This document shows positions 24,184 through 29,716 of a stretch of DNA of 36,607 nt, in pieces. The position numbers and the translations under genes were made by a program. Origin of the DNA: a virus. A model generated the notes under the pieces. It saw only the letters and a list, made by a program, of their open reading frames with translations, ran no database searches and was not told where the DNA came from. Within the stretch, counting starts at the first letter, position 1. Every line of letters begins with the position of its first letter. The stretch spans positions 1-36,607 of IMG/VR virus record IMGVR_UViG_3300042328_000216; one strand, 5' to 3'.

Positions 24184-26393
24184 TGTTGTATTCCTTCGGG
24201 TGGCATCATTGGTTGTTCAGGTTGCATTTGTTCTTCAGGCATCATACCTTCAGGCTGTTCCATTGTTTCGTCAGGCATTTCTCTGCCTGGCATCTCGCCA
24301 ATTAAGTCACCGCTGTCCATCATGCCGTGAACTGTACCCATAACGATGTCTTGGATTTGCTCCGGCGTCATGCCTGCCTGCACTGCGCTGATACGTTTAG
24401 TCTCAGCGTCGTATGCTTTAATGTTAGCCTCTTGTTCTTTAATAGCCATCTCTTGCGCTTCCATAGACTTGCTGACGTTTTGCAACATACCGTGCAATTG
24501 GTCTAGCTCTTGGCCCATAGCTTCGAGTTGTTGCTGTGCTGCTTGCAATGCTGGGTCTTCATCGGCATCGCTTAGTAGTTTAGGATCGATAGTCTTAGCA
24601 AAGCGTTTAGCCATCTCTTGTGCGCCAGGCCAGTCCATGTTTTTAACAAATAAATCGCCTGCCACAGCCCATAGTTGTGGGTTGCCTTGCAACAATTGGC
24701 TCATAGCGTCTAATGACTCTTGACGTTTAGTCATGTAGCTTGGGCCAGTTGATACGCACACATCGTACTTACCAACGCTAGGATTGTAGATTTTTTCAAT
24801 CACAACGCCTGTTTCGTCCACTATTTTCTTCACTGGCTCGGCTTGTGATGGGTTAATTTTAGCCCGTTTTACTTCGCCATCTACGCCAATAATGCGAGCA
24901 ATACGCTCTGTATCGTAAATTTTAGGTATCATGTCAACTAATTGACGTCCACAGTGACGTATAGCACGGGCTAAATTGTCAACGTAGTGGTAAGTACCCG
25001 TGTCGCCTTGTTTTTCCCGCGCTAAGATGGCGCGGCCTGAGCGTTCGTTACTTGTAGCACCTAAACTGGAGTCGTATTGGCCAGTTGAGGACTTAATATC
25101 GTCAGATGCACCAGCTTTAGCCTGTAATAGACCGCTAGACGCCATAGGCGGTTGAGCGCGTTGCGGTAAAGGCAATATAGCACCGTTGCCGTCTGTAACG
25201 TCAGGGTTAACCTCCAAATACGGCCAGTTGGTCGTGTTGGCTGTCTTCCATTGTGTCTCGTAGCCCTCAAATTGACCGCCGTAACCTATGAATGGCGCTT
25301 TTGGAGCCAATGCCAACATCTCGGCTTCTTGTGAAACCCAATAGTTGTACATACGTTGTGCGTCTTTTGCGTTACGGATCAAGCCTGACACGTATAATCG
25401 GCCATCAACTTCGTATTCGTTACCTACAACACGGATAACAGGTATAAATTTACCTGCCCATTCTTGTTCTTCTAGCACTTCAAAGCCGTTAGTTTTAAGC
25501 CATTTGACTTTTTTAACGTCTGCCATGCGTGATTTAAGCGGTTTTAAGCCTAAAGCCTTCAATTCTTTGTCTTCACGGCTACCTTCTACCGCGCTCATGT
25601 TGCCTTGGTATAGATTTAGCTTGGTTGGCGTATGATCAAAGTAAAAATACTCAGCAACACGCACTGTGTTCTCAGTCAACCACTGACTTAGTGAGGAGTC
25701 GCCCACACCTTGCTGCATCATGGACGATATTGGCGCGGCATCAGGGAACTGACGCTCGTATTCTGCCTTCGTCATGTCTTCTGTGACAAAACACCACTCG
25801 GCATCGCTGCCGCATGGGTCTTGTATTGTAGGATCCATATAAACGCTAAAGGAATTGCGGATGCGGCCAATGTATAGATCTTGGTCAAATGAATTGTCGT
25901 CGCAATATTTAGTGAGTACACGGATGTAGCCTTCACCGTAGGTGACTTGGTTTTCACATGCTGTGTCGTATGCGACATCTGCATCTGAAATATATTCAAT
26001 ATGCCTAATTACACCCTCAAATATCTCCGCGACCTCTACGTCAGCGTTATCATCCACAGGGATTACCTTCACCGAAGGTCGATTTTGGCGTTGTTCATTA
26101 GTAACTTGATGAACATGTTGCGGTAACTTATTGATTGTTAAGCAAGGACGCGCGTTGATGGTTTGACCTTGAACTGAGCCACGGGTAGCCAGTACGTCCG
26201 CAGGCCATTGCCACTGATTGTCGGGGGAGCCTGCCTCGAAACGTAAGTCATCAAGCTCGTCTTCACGGCTCTCTGAATACGCAGAAACCGCCATAGTAAA
26301 GCGGCTTCGCATCGTTGCAAGCATGTCTTTTTTGTCGTTAGGCTTATTAGCGCCTTCTGCGACAACCCCAACGGTGGTCATGTCATCATTCAT
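24180..26393 (-). CDS. Portal protein, P22 gp1-like
   Basis: This 737-aa protein is close in size to P22 portal (725 aa). The N-terminal block with FTMAVSAYSESREDELDDLR, RPCLTINKLPQHVHQVTNEQ and NRPSVKVIPVDD is characteristic of P22-type portals, as is TACENQVTYGEGYIRVLTKY. The C-terminus has a long coiled-coil barrel-like segment (AAQQQLEAMGQELDQLHGML) and a Met/Gln/Pro-rich tail. It forms the dodecameric ring for DNA entry and exit. It overlaps the GroES gene end by 8 bp. Confidence 0.93.
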   Translation of the reverse strand: MNDDMTTVGVVAEGANKPNDKKDMLATMRSRFTMAVSAYSESREDELDDLRFEAGSPDNQWQWPADVLATRGSVQGQTINARPCLTINKLPQHVHQVTNEQRQNRPSVKVIPVDDNADVEVAEIFEGVIRHIEYISDADVAYDTACENQVTYGEGYIRVLTKYCDDNSFDQDLYIGRIRNSFSVYMDPTIQDPCGSDAEWCFVTEDMTKAEYERQFPDAAPISSMMQQGVGDSSLSQWLTENTVRVAEYFYFDHTPTKLNLYQGNMSAVEGSREDKELKALGLKPLKSRMADVKKVKWLKTNGFEVLEEQEWAGKFIPVIRVVGNEYEVDGRLYVSGLIRNAKDAQRMYNYWVSQEAEMLALAPKAPFIGYGGQFEGYETQWKTANTTNWPYLEVNPDVTDGNGAILPLPQRAQPPMASSGLLQAKAGASDDIKSSTGQYDSSLGATSNERSGRAILAREKQGDTGTYHYVDNLARAIRHCGRQLVDMIPKIYDTERIARIIGVDGEVKRAKINPSQAEPVKKIVDETGVVIEKIYNPSVGKYDVCVSTGPSYMTKRQESLDAMSQLLQGNPQLWAVAGDLFVKNMDWPGAQEMAKRFAKTIDPKLLSDADEDPALQAAQQQLEAMGQELDQLHGMLQNVSKSMEAQEMAIKEQEANIKAYDAETKRISAVQAGMTPEQIQDIVMGTVHGMMDSGDLIGEMPGREMPDETMEQPEGMMPEEQMQPEQPMMPPEGIQQ

Positions 26394-26673
26394 TTAATAT
26401 TCCGATCACGTCTTTTTCGTTCATAAGAAGATAGTCTTCGTCTTCGTATTTAAACTTCTGTCCTGAATACTCACCGAACAGTATTGTGTCACCTACTTTA
26501 ACTGTCATCGCTCTGACCGAGCCATTATCTAATATAGCGCCTTGGCCTGCTGCAACAATCACACCTTCAAACTTCTTCTCAGCTTGCTTGGCCAGTACAA
26601 TGCCACTGGCCGTTGTTAGTTCTTCTTCTTTTTGCTTTACTACAATGCGTTCACCGAAAGGTTTTAATTTCAT
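26386..26673 (-). CDS. groES: GroES-like co-chaperonin
   Basis: This 95-aa protein matches the full length of bacterial GroES. It has MKLKPFGERIVVKQKEEEL, a mobile-loop region with SGIVLA (about residues 24-29; the I-V-L tripeptide contacts GroEL), the FEGVIVAAGQG strand, ILDNG roof region, VKVGDTILFGEYSG and a YLLMNEKDVIGIL end. It would cap the host GroEL and help fold phage proteins. Its place between terminase and portal, in a phage with a P22-type coat, suggests it assists coat folding. ATGA overlaps with the upstream 46-aa gene. Confidence 0.92.
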   Translation of the reverse strand: MKLKPFGERIVVKQKEEELTTASGIVLAKQAEKKFEGVIVAAGQGAILDNGSVRAMTVKVGDTILFGEYSGQKFKYEDEDYLLMNEKDVIGILNE

Positions 26674-26812: not shown

Positions 26813-28339
26813 CTAACTCCCCATCCAAGAGCTTGATGCTCCGCTACCAGTAGCATACGACTTACGGGGAGCTTTGTCAACATATTCACGATGGGCTACA
26901 GGGAACGCAAATGTCACGCATAACGCGTCTGCTGCGTCCGGACTTGCCATGCCCCTGGCCTTCATCTCTTTCTTACCTTCTAAGAATATTGTCCCGCTGC
27001 TGTTAGGCTTTTTCATCGGGCCTGTCAAGTCCGATTTTAATTTTCTATCCTCCGGTATGCTGGCGCTGCGTAGCCACTCCCGCATCGCGCCCCACATCTC
27101 GGCCCGCTTGTTGCCCCACATTATCGAGTTCTTAGCCCGTGACCCGAAGTTCACACCGCGCACCTTGTACCGTTGCTCGGTTAGCCTGTCCAATATGCCA
27201 TACCCTAGGCCGCCCTCGTCGATGACGGTCATCACTGGTTTGTATTCTTCTATGGCCTCAATCACCCGACCTACGACAGTCATTGTATCTTCGCCCTGAT
27301 AGCGCTTAATAGCAACGATATCCCGCCCTTGACGGACAACGATGACCGTGCTGTCTGCGCCCCCGCGTGCTGGATCCACCCCGATAACGATAGGCGCAGA
27401 CGTATCCTTATATCTCTCACGTTTGAACGCGTCCTCAACGAGTGTCGGGCTGATAAACTGGTCTTCGCCTGACGATGGAAACTCACCGTAAACCTCGACC
27501 CTCGCCTGGCTACTGTCCTCACCATACTCGGCAATAATCTGTTCATATACCGCTTTATCCGTGTCCTCGACCTGCCGCGCATCAATTTGTCTGCCATGCC
27601 AAAAGTCCCGTTTAGAGTTAAAGCACTCAAAGAAGTAGCCTTGGTTGCGACGCGGGTTGCTGAACGCGAACCAATACCGGTCTAATATGTTCTCTGTAAA
27701 GAAGCCCGCCCCCACTGACCATATCGTGTCCGGTATACCGCTGGCCTCGTCAAATATCAACATCATGCCGTCATGGTTGTGGACACCGGCGTAACTGTCA
27801 GGATTCTCTTCACTCCACAGCTTACCTTCTGCCGCCCAGTACCGCGTACCTTTTTTCAAGTCACGCTCCACTAGCTCGCATACCCATTTGGCTGGCACCA
27901 GCTTGGTCGCGCTGATCTCCCACCAGTGTGAGTTTATTATCATGGCCTGCCACTTAGTCAGCTCACCCCAGGTGACTGACCGCAGTTGTGACTCACTGTT
28001 GGCGCTGACGACAACACTTGAGCCGATCCTTGTGGTTAACATCCACATTATAAGCCAGCTAACGAGGGCCGACTTACCAATACCCCGTCCGCTTGAGACC
28101 GCCTCACGCAGTGTCGACATGTCGACCTGTCCTTGGTTGTCCTTGATGTGCTTACCGATTGTGCGTAGCACCTCGCGCTGCCACTGACGTGGCCCTTTGA
28201 ACTTAGCCAGTGGCGTGTTGGCTTGGCCCCACGGGAACGCGAACAGCACGAACGCTTCAGGGTCGTCCGCAACACGCGGATCCCACAGCCGTGACATGAG
28301 GAGTTGTTCTTCGTCCGAGCTATATATAGGTAGTTGCAT
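26813..28339 (-). CDS. Terminase large subunit, P22-type
   Basis: This 508-aa packaging motor has Walker A GRGIGKS (residues 84-90), Walker B MLIFDE (Asp197, Glu198), and a RNase H-like nuclease domain with VIGVDPARGG (Asp322), TVIDEGG (Asp374) and SPDAADAL near residue 467. It pumps DNA into the prohead through the portal and cuts it. Relatives package by headful, which agrees with the circular map. Its start overlaps the small subunit stop (TAATG). Confidence 0.94.
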   Translation of the reverse strand: MQLPIYSSDEEQLLMSRLWDPRVADDPEAFVLFAFPWGQANTPLAKFKGPRQWQREVLRTIGKHIKDNQGQVDMSTLREAVSSGRGIGKSALVSWLIMWMLTTRIGSSVVVSANSESQLRSVTWGELTKWQAMIINSHWWEISATKLVPAKWVCELVERDLKKGTRYWAAEGKLWSEENPDSYAGVHNHDGMMLIFDEASGIPDTIWSVGAGFFTENILDRYWFAFSNPRRNQGYFFECFNSKRDFWHGRQIDARQVEDTDKAVYEQIIAEYGEDSSQARVEVYGEFPSSGEDQFISPTLVEDAFKRERYKDTSAPIVIGVDPARGGADSTVIVVRQGRDIVAIKRYQGEDTMTVVGRVIEAIEEYKPVMTVIDEGGLGYGILDRLTEQRYKVRGVNFGSRAKNSIMWGNKRAEMWGAMREWLRSASIPEDRKLKSDLTGPMKKPNSSGTIFLEGKKEMKARGMASPDAADALCVTFAFPVAHREYVDKAPRKSYATGSGASSSWMGS

Positions 28340-28743
28340 TATTGGGTGTCTACGACGGTGCCTTCAATGATACGTGATTGAGCCTCGGCTAACGCCTGAG
28401 TGATACTTATCTTTTGGTACACATCCACACTGATCTCAGTCTTGGCTGTCCATGCGTGTGCATGCTGCAACACAGCCAGTGCTGACTTAGCGTCGCCTTC
28501 TTTAGCGGAGGCGATCAGCACCTGGGCCATCTCCAGCTCACCGTCTGCTTTACCTTTCTGCGCCGCCATCTCCGCTACGGGGTCTAGCTGGCACAGTTGC
28601 CGGTACTCGGACGGCAACATGCCCGCAGCGAGGGCCAAAGAGTCATTCTTCAGACCCAGCTTGGCTGCGTCGTATATTTTCTGTAAACGCGATTCGGTGG
28701 CTTTTACCTCGCGTGGCGTAAAAGGTATCGATAGGAATGTCAT
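28339..28743 (-). CDS. Terminase small subunit (putative)
   Basis: This 134-aa helical protein directly precedes the large subunit. It has EVKATESRLQKIYDAAKLGL, then an HTH-like stretch LALAAGMLPSEYRQLCQLDP (about residues 36-55) for recognition of packaging DNA, then AQKGKADGELEMAQVLIASA. The family is inferred from size, position and HTH. A promoter ends about 7 bp upstream of the ATG and no Shine-Dalgarno is visible, so the mRNA may be leaderless. Confidence 0.8.
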   Translation of the reverse strand: MTFLSIPFTPREVKATESRLQKIYDAAKLGLKNDSLALAAGMLPSEYRQLCQLDPVAEMAAQKGKADGELEMAQVLIASAKEGDAKSALAVLQHAHAWTAKTEISVDVYQKISITQALAEAQSRIIEGTVVDTQ

Positions 28744-28749
28744 TAGCGC

Positions 28750-28778
28750 ATAGTATTTGTTTACATGCGTGGTGTCAA
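28750..28778 (-). promoter_or_regulatory. Sigma70-like promoter for the late operon
   Basis: On the minus strand TTGACA (28778-28773), a 17-bp spacer and TACTAT (28755-28750) precede the terminase ATG at 28743. The -35 is perfect and the -10 matches 4/6. The predicted start of transcription falls on or next to the ATG. Confidence 0.6.
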
Positions 28779-28953: not shown

Positions 28954-29025
28954 TTACTTGTTCATTACGTACATTGTTACTTCAAAACCGAAACGCATTT
29001 CTGTAGCTGCTGGTGTTGTCCACAT
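28954..29025 (-). CDS. pqqA: PqqA: PQQ precursor peptide (phage-encoded)
   Basis: This 23-codon gene encodes a peptide opening MWTTPAATEMRFGFEVTMY and ending VMNK. PqqA peptides are about 23-24 residues with W-x-x-P near the start and R-x-G-x-E-V-T-x-Y in the second half. Glu15 and Tyr19 are present in the E-x3-Y spacing; the radical SAM enzyme PqqE joins these two side chains on PqqA held by PqqD, and the pair becomes pyrroloquinoline quinone. AAGGAGAT sits 7 nt upstream of the ATG. It lies upstream of terS and leftward, alone, with no pqqB-E in the genome, so the host must supply the enzymes. Family recognition is strong for such a short peptide; role in infection is inferred. Host DNA contamination is unlikely as the circle is closed. 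Confidence 0.88.
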   Translation of the reverse strand: MWTTPAATEMRFGFEVTMYVMNK

Positions 29026-29049
29026 GGTAGATCTCCTTAAGTCGATTGA

Positions 29050-29080
29050 GTGTACACATTGAGGTGTACGTGTACACATT
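29050..29080. promoter_or_regulatory. GTGTACACATT direct repeat in the pqqA leader
   Basis: GTGTACACATT occurs at 29050-29060 and 29070-29080, a 20-bp period (about two helical turns), with a related GGTGTACG between. Each copy contains the palindrome GTGTACAC. They lie about 25-55 bp upstream of the pqqA start and could be operators. Confidence 0.5.
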
Positions 29081-29089
29081 CTCAGCTTT

Positions 29090-29110
29090 TGTATATACAT
29101 TGTATATACA
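29090..29110. promoter_or_regulatory. Tandem TGTATATACA palindromes
   Basis: The 10-bp palindrome TGTATATACA occurs at 29090-29099 and again at 29101-29110, an 11-bp period. No classical -35/-10 pair for pqqA was found nearby, so these boxes may recruit a regulator or contain a noncanonical -10 (TATACA). Confidence 0.45.
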
Positions 29111-29130
29111 GATAACCATGATTCTATGTG

Positions 29131-29178
29131 GCTAGTGGGCAGGTGGGCAGATTGCTAGTGGGCAGGTGGGCAATCTGC
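29131..29178. repeat. 19-bp direct repeat with inverted arms
   Basis: GCTAGTGGGCAGGTGGGCA occurs at 29131-29149 and 29154-29172. Overlapping this, GCAGATTGC (29147-29155) and GCAATCTGC (29170-29178) form perfect 9-bp inverted arms around a 14-base loop. A partial GCTAGTGGGC recurs near 29325. Confidence 0.7.
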
Positions 29179-29346
29179 TATTTGCATTAAAAAATAAAAA
29201 TTTCTTCTGACACCATCGTCCACGAAGGCCCTTCCCCCAAGGCCCTACCCCCCCCCAGCAAAATGCAAACAGTTCCCAGCTGCCAGGCTAACAGGCTGTA
29301 AATAAATGTCTTACAGGCTGGCGGGCTAGTGGGCGCGCAGCTGATC

Positions 29347-29370
29347 GCAGTCTGCAGTCTGCAGTCTGCA
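29347..29370. repeat. Three tandem GCAGTCT units
   Basis: The 7-bp unit GCAGTCT is repeated three times (29347-29367) and followed by GCA. CTGCAG palindromes arise at the junctions. Function unknown. Confidence 0.65.
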
Positions 29371-29425
29371 TTGGCATTATTGCCATATTGCCATGCGCTT
29401 TTTACTTGCAGCTGGCCAGGCGCTT

Positions 29426-29496
29426 ATTGGCAATATTGTCATTTAGAAAACATTGGCAATATTGTCATTTAGAAAACATTGGCAATATTGTCATTT
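29426..29496. repeat. 26-bp iterons, 2.7 copies
   Basis: Units at 29426-29451 and 29452-29477 are identical and a third partial copy covers 29478-29496. Each unit carries TTGGCAATATTGTCATTTAG, which includes the palindrome CAATATTG. The related boxes upstream and downstream (29370-29400, 29548-29575, 29655-29668) suggest one binding protein for the whole cluster. Confidence 0.75.
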
Positions 29497-29716
29497 GGTT
29501 TTAAGTGCTGGAATTATGCAAAGGGAAAAAAGCTGGAAACAAAAAGATTGGTCATATTGCCATATTGTCATGGCAATTTAAGTCGTATACGTTTGCGCCT
29601 TTCGTGTCTGCATACCTTATATATATACTTTTCTAAGTATAAGTATAAATAAATGACAATATTGCCAATAAACCTTTAAGACTCGCTTGCCATGTGCCTT
29701 TGCACGATCCGCCACA

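Follow-up and report, generated by a model that had tools for sequence, protein, structure and literature searches.

The question raised by this locus is whether a 72-bp open reading frame in a viral genome encodes PqqA, the peptide precursor of PQQ, and, if it does, what a phage could gain from carrying it. The reading frame lies on the minus strand of the window, by which we mean the whole stretch of DNA analysed, a virus record of 36.6 kb. PqqE, acting with PqqD, joins a Glu to a Tyr residue of PqqA, and PqqA is consumed. The gene and the sequences preceding it are arranged as follows:

28954..29025, minus strand: pqqA, encoding the 23-aa PQQ precursor peptide MWTTPAATEMRFGFEVTMYVMNK followed by TAA; cross-link pair Glu15/Tyr19
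29031..29038, minus strand: Shine-Dalgarno sequence AAGGAGAT, with a 5-nt spacer to the ATG; an SD-like sequence occupies the same place in relatives
29026..29185, minus strand: 5' leader of variable sequence; TGTGTACA boxes at 29051-29058 and 29071-29078; candidate promoter/operator region
29186..29256, minus strand: G-rich element, then a T-rich run; conserved between the window and its close relatives L264, L265, L271 and L040

The reading frame is intact and comprises 24 codons, 23 for amino acids plus the stop. An initial annotation had assigned it to PqqA from residues W2, P5, R11, G13, E15, V16, T17 and Y19 and from a ribosome binding site; all of these residues are present as described, with AAGGAGAT 5 nt before the ATG, and profile searches bear the assignment out. 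The peptide scores 40.3 bits against PF08042 (curated cut-off 21.1, E = 3e-10) and 38.8 bits against TIGR02107 (curated cut-off 20, E = 5.6e-10), covering the whole of each profile and lying about 19 bits over both cut-offs. A degenerate PqqA codon pattern matched once in the window and not at all in 100 dinucleotide shuffles. These E-values and the absence of the pattern from the shuffles lead us to conclude that this is not a chance reading frame and, on the strength of its sequence, that the peptide is PqqA. The Glu-x3-Tyr pair on which PqqE acts corresponds to E15 and Y19. A search for a PDB sequence match to the window peptide found none.

The leader varies among close relatives, while the reading frame is kept. 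The G-rich/T-rich element at 29186-29256 is preserved in relatives that have different pqqA leaders. Both matches to TGTGTACA in the whole window fall within the pqqA leader, a weak result given a chance mean of 1.66; because the box count is not above chance, the boxes were rejected as an operator. We found no consensus sigma-70 promoter directly 5' of the window gene and no strong hairpin 3' of it (z -0.13), and an Rfam search around the leader gave chance-level matches only.

On one side of the gene is a long divergent intergenic region; on the other lie the packaging and portal genes, arranged as follows:

28750..28778, minus strand: promoter-like TTGACA-17-TACTAT directly before terS (10/12 matches)
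28339..28743, minus strand: terminase small subunit gene (terS), assigned from its position and the layout of annotated relatives, with no PHROG or Pfam match of its own
26813..28339, minus strand: terminase large subunit (TerL; phrog_2, E 7e-45), 73% identical to the TerL of phage DSL-LC05
24180..26393, minus strand: P22-like portal protein (PF16510, 595 bits; phrog_156)

The promoter-like sequence belonging to terS suggests that terS is transcribed separately from pqqA. The window also encodes a major head protein, a scaffold, a head-closure protein, an endolysin, a family A DNA polymerase and a helicase, and the portal, TerL, head protein and DNA polymerase together mark it as a genuine phage genome. 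Its TerL is nearest to those of environmental phages, such as DSL-LC05, which came from a lake. A phage co-chaperonin GroES (PF00166) is encoded at 26386-26673 and is annotated in the DSL-LC05 relative too. In the divergent intergenic region, a 26-nt repeat of the ATTGGCAATATTGTCAT type occurs five times in direct orientation, together with inverted copies, and forms an iteron- or operator-like array (29370-29670). No tRNA was found in the window.

PqqA is not peculiar to this record. The window, Acinetobacter and Klebsiella PqqA peptides were used as tblastn probes against 50,697 phage records. The window peptide matched nine named isolate records (P19250A, Venkman, MEP301, MEP401, MEP402 and four Melnitz variants) and one uncultured Manatee Spring phage, 10 records in total, and the other two probes recovered the same set. 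Identity to the window peptide ranges from 73 to 100% among these Methylophilales phages. In P19250A (KX815270.1, 28085-28153, minus strand; L002:4001-4069), the peptide is unannotated and 100% identical to that of the window; this contradicts the statement that P19250A has no reported auxiliary genes (PMC7678222). Every cultured Methylophilales phage that could be checked in the collection carries pqqA, although several others that have been named were not found among the 50,697 records, which leaves the denominator incomplete; a search of the collection for further Methylophilales phages by way of other proteins added none. Among the phages of many PQQ-making hosts represented there, pqqA is kept only in those of methylotrophs. 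None of the phage records inspected has a feature annotated as PqqA at the match, where there is either nothing or an antisense 'hypothetical' ORF or a tRNA, in line with the prediction that gene callers would miss the gene.

One further match, 'Acinetobacter phage MD-2021a' (L008, CAKLQF020000010.1), carries ppk, fur and pqqABCDE; we rejected it as chromosomal and apparently mislabelled. It is a real example of host DNA filed as phage, and the window gene could in principle be host contamination or a binning artefact of the same kind. The probability of this is close to nil, however: the window has TerL, a P22-like portal, a major head protein, a scaffold and a DNA polymerase, and the presence of pqqA in the complete genomes of cultured phages already refutes an artefact.

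The distribution of the gene within the lineage of the window was examined among TerL relatives whose available upstream sequence was 1.1 kb or longer. As had been expected for related phages, pqqA is found upstream of terS in 8/9 relatives whose TerL is at least 94% identical; it occurs in 0/54 of the more distant ones. It thus marks one clade within the lineage and is absent from the sister lineage. The expectation that the reading frame would be kept in relatives holds for these eight and fails for the ninth, L264, a near-identical relative in which the pqqA reading frame has been deleted upstream of terS with the leader and Shine-Dalgarno sequence retained (ATGTAAACAAATAG). L264 is either a natural deletion variant, so that pqqA is dispensable, or the product of an assembly fault.

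Uncultured phages extend the picture considerably. Searching IMG/VR with degenerate DNA patterns for the 23-aa peptide yielded at least 120 contigs that carry pqqA, and in the copies listed the start, the stop and an SD-like leader are intact. A second pattern fixed residues 1-14 only, so that E15 and Y19 played no part in selection, and in all 120 copies listed from it Glu15, Thr17, Tyr19 and the 23-aa length are invariant; Glu15 and Tyr19, whose loss in related phages would have counted against the initial annotation, are likewise kept in 132/132 distinct phage sequences. Across these 132 sequences pN/pS is 0.18 (0.29 at the positions that the patterns left free) and the synonymous divergence, pS, is about 0.6, from which it follows that the peptide is conserved and not the DNA. 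Judged from this pattern of substitution, purifying selection acts on phage pqqA, and neither cross-link residue varies. Grouping by common immediate neighbours resolved 140 loci into about 44 local contexts, which indicates that pqqA has been acquired or moved many times; the counts do not represent independent events, however, since many contigs are fragmentary and some nearly duplicate one another. The gene is antisense to both neighbours in 48/121 copies, and hairpins with z < -2 are found downstream of pqqA in 59% of relatives versus 18% upstream. Both traits bear on whether pqqA forms a moron-like cassette with a promoter and terminator of its own, but the window copy shows neither a consensus promoter nor a strong hairpin. 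A Gamma-type PqqA pattern (as in Acinetobacter), validated on L008, had no match in IMG/VR. One copy lies on a 356-kb viral contig (L250, IMGVR_UViG_3300023174_000036), possibly a jumbo phage of methylotrophs.

These data bear on the idea that the gene is a neutral passenger, a short piece of host DNA that entered by recombination and has persisted by chance or serves only as a region of homology. The loss of pqqA in L264 is what such an account would predict, as is the exact DNA identity of phage and host copies in two cases. Against it, the peptide is kept in spite of a pS of about 0.6, and pN/pS strongly disfavours it; moreover, the start, stop and SD-like leader are intact throughout the copies listed, the gene recurs in some 44 contexts and the downstream hairpins are enriched. 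We regard a passenger as very improbable.

The host link comes from the Methylophilaceae, which carry the gene in all 121 genomes searched, with 1-12 copies each (mean 4.5) and at least 2 copies in 118/121. These bacteria have been described as having 3-12 pqqA genes and typically one set of the remaining genes, pqqBCDE (PMC4109929). Among host copies of PqqA the window peptide is the most frequent (53/127), and the most frequent phage peptide is identical to it; at the DNA level the window gene is 64/66 identical to copies in the Methylophilaceae single-cell genomes L181, L186 and L192. A TerL search of 150 Methylophilaceae genomes gave a single match, at 39%, and no close prophage or other host link. 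The assignment of the window to this host is therefore partly circular, resting as it does on pqqA itself. In Methylovorus MP688, PqqA availability is cited as rate-determining for PQQ (Ge 2015, cited in PMC11317620); this, together with the multiplication of pqqA in the hosts, makes pqqA the gene one would expect a phage to acquire if it acquired only one. Methylobacterium extorquens AM1 was reported to make PQQ without pqqA (Toyama and Lidstrom 1998, cited in PMC11317620), although that work did not look at orphan copies. The AM1 result counts against the role proposed below and the MP688 result for it.

A second, independent orphan case concerns phages of another methylotroph class: at L349:2715-2804 a 29-aa Methylobacterium-type PqqA (34.9 bits) lies near a phage DNA polymerase, and no pqqB-E genes were found in that locus. 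More widely, PqqD or PqqE scored above the cut-off in 0/50 phage records, and tblastn found no PqqB-E in the phage loci. It follows that phage PqqA must rely on host enzymes. One 72-kb contig (L045, IMGVR_UViG_3300025120_009955) does encode a consumer of the cofactor: some 6 kb away from its pqqA lies the gene for a full-length, 624-aa methanol dehydrogenase that has a WDYDG motif and is nearest to the lanthanide-dependent XoxF (L345:1441-3315, same contig). This pairing agrees with the Lake Baikal population VP_266, which encodes both (PMC7678222). Beside the XoxF-type gene are a repeat protein, curlin-like in look, and a large ORF matching phrog_7800.

A peptide without its pathway might instead act as a decoy or inhibitor, titrating PqqD/PqqE and so shutting off or redirecting host PQQ synthesis. 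The absence of pqqB-E from the phage loci, leaving the peptide alone, fits such a role, and small phage peptides often block host enzymes. But a decoy needs neither both reacting residues nor the exact host sequence, and in all 120 copies listed E15 and Y19 never vary, while the commonest phage peptide is the commonest host peptide; a methanol dehydrogenase alongside pqqA in one phage points to more use of PQQ, not less. We consider a decoy quite improbable. Somewhat less so, though still unlikely, is that PQQ or a PqqA product serves a purpose other than methanol oxidation, such as antioxidant protection, lanthanide handling or another PQQ enzyme. Hosts retain many orphan pqqA copies, for which a response to the source of lanthanide and a possible part in taking up metal have been suggested (PMC11317620); yet restriction to methylotroph phages and the XoxF gene in one of them fit methanol oxidation best. 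The two readings overlap, XoxF itself being the lanthanide enzyme.

Overall, we hold with considerable confidence that the window carries a functional, host-derived orphan pqqA of a probably lytic Methylophilaceae phage, a gene that would top up the PQQ substrate and so sustain methanol dehydrogenase during infection. The phage would make PqqA during infection, and host PqqD would present it to the radical-SAM enzyme PqqE, which would link Glu15 to Tyr19; a host protease and PqqB/PqqC would then complete PQQ. As one PqqA is destroyed per PQQ, the peptide is a consumable and can limit flux. In this way a 72-bp gene could keep PQQ, and hence the PQQ-dependent methanol dehydrogenase (XoxF/MxaF), supplied as host expression falls, and a dehydrogenase kept running would feed the infection. 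Expression in infection, use by host PqqD/PqqE and a gain for methanol oxidation and phage yield are what we infer from the genomic evidence. The initial annotation had proposed a probable auxiliary metabolic gene, and that grading stands: the viral genome is genuine, the profile scores are high, the peptide matches that of the host, it is under selection, it is essentially restricted to methylotroph phages, it recurs in many contexts and is absent from the sister lineage, and the remainder of the pathway is left to the host.

The implied novelty of a phage PqqA was too strong. It was reported in 2020 for the Lake Baikal methylophage population VP_266, with support of methanol dehydrogenase as its proposed role (PMC7678222), and PqqA was among listed viral genes in 2026 (PMC13188868). 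What seems to be previously unreported is the near-universality of pqqA in methylophages; papers on Methylophilales phage isolates in the open-access literature searched make no mention of phage pqqA, mention elsewhere being possible. We think it likely that nearly all phages of obligate methylotrophs carry an orphan pqqA as a hallmark, that unrelated types acquired it independently (P22-portal, P19250A/Venkman, MEP301, Zobellviridae, T4-like Kyanoviridae, the 356-kb contig and the alphaproteobacterial-type case) and that it was missed because it is 72 bp long. If this is true, pqqA would be among the smallest widespread phage metabolic genes, one that supplies a consumed cofactor precursor and not an enzyme, and the one limiting input to PQQ would be routine cargo in phages of methylotrophs that abound in fresh and coastal waters, linking infection to methanol oxidation. 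The annotation of model methylophages is corrected, and the 72-bp gene can serve to flag uncultured viral contigs whose hosts are methylotrophs. Genes like it are concealed by length cut-offs and by phage family libraries (PHROGs v4 has no family matching PqqA). Its role is directly testable in cultured phage-host pairs.

Among known systems, Baikal VP_266 resembles the window in encoding PqqA but is T4-like and has its own methanol dehydrogenase, whereas the window is a small phage with a P22-type portal and pqqA only (PMC7678222). Methylophilaceae PqqA (PF08042/TIGR02107) is the same 23-aa peptide with Glu15/Tyr19 and, in many hosts, identical residues, and these bacteria, like the phages, usually have orphan copies that lie apart from pqqBCDE (PMC4109929); the window gene differs in its phage genome, phage neighbours and phage leader. 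The Methylophilales phages P19250A, Venkman, MEP301, MEP401/402 and Melnitz have, like the window, a stand-alone intact pqqA, but they belong to other phage lineages and carry it at other insertion places. By analogy only, a parallel in principle is psbA of cyanophages, likewise a single host gene for a fast-used component of the central energy machinery and likewise common in the phages of its host group; there is no homology between the two, psbA encoding a protein subunit and pqqA a 23-aa substrate peptide.
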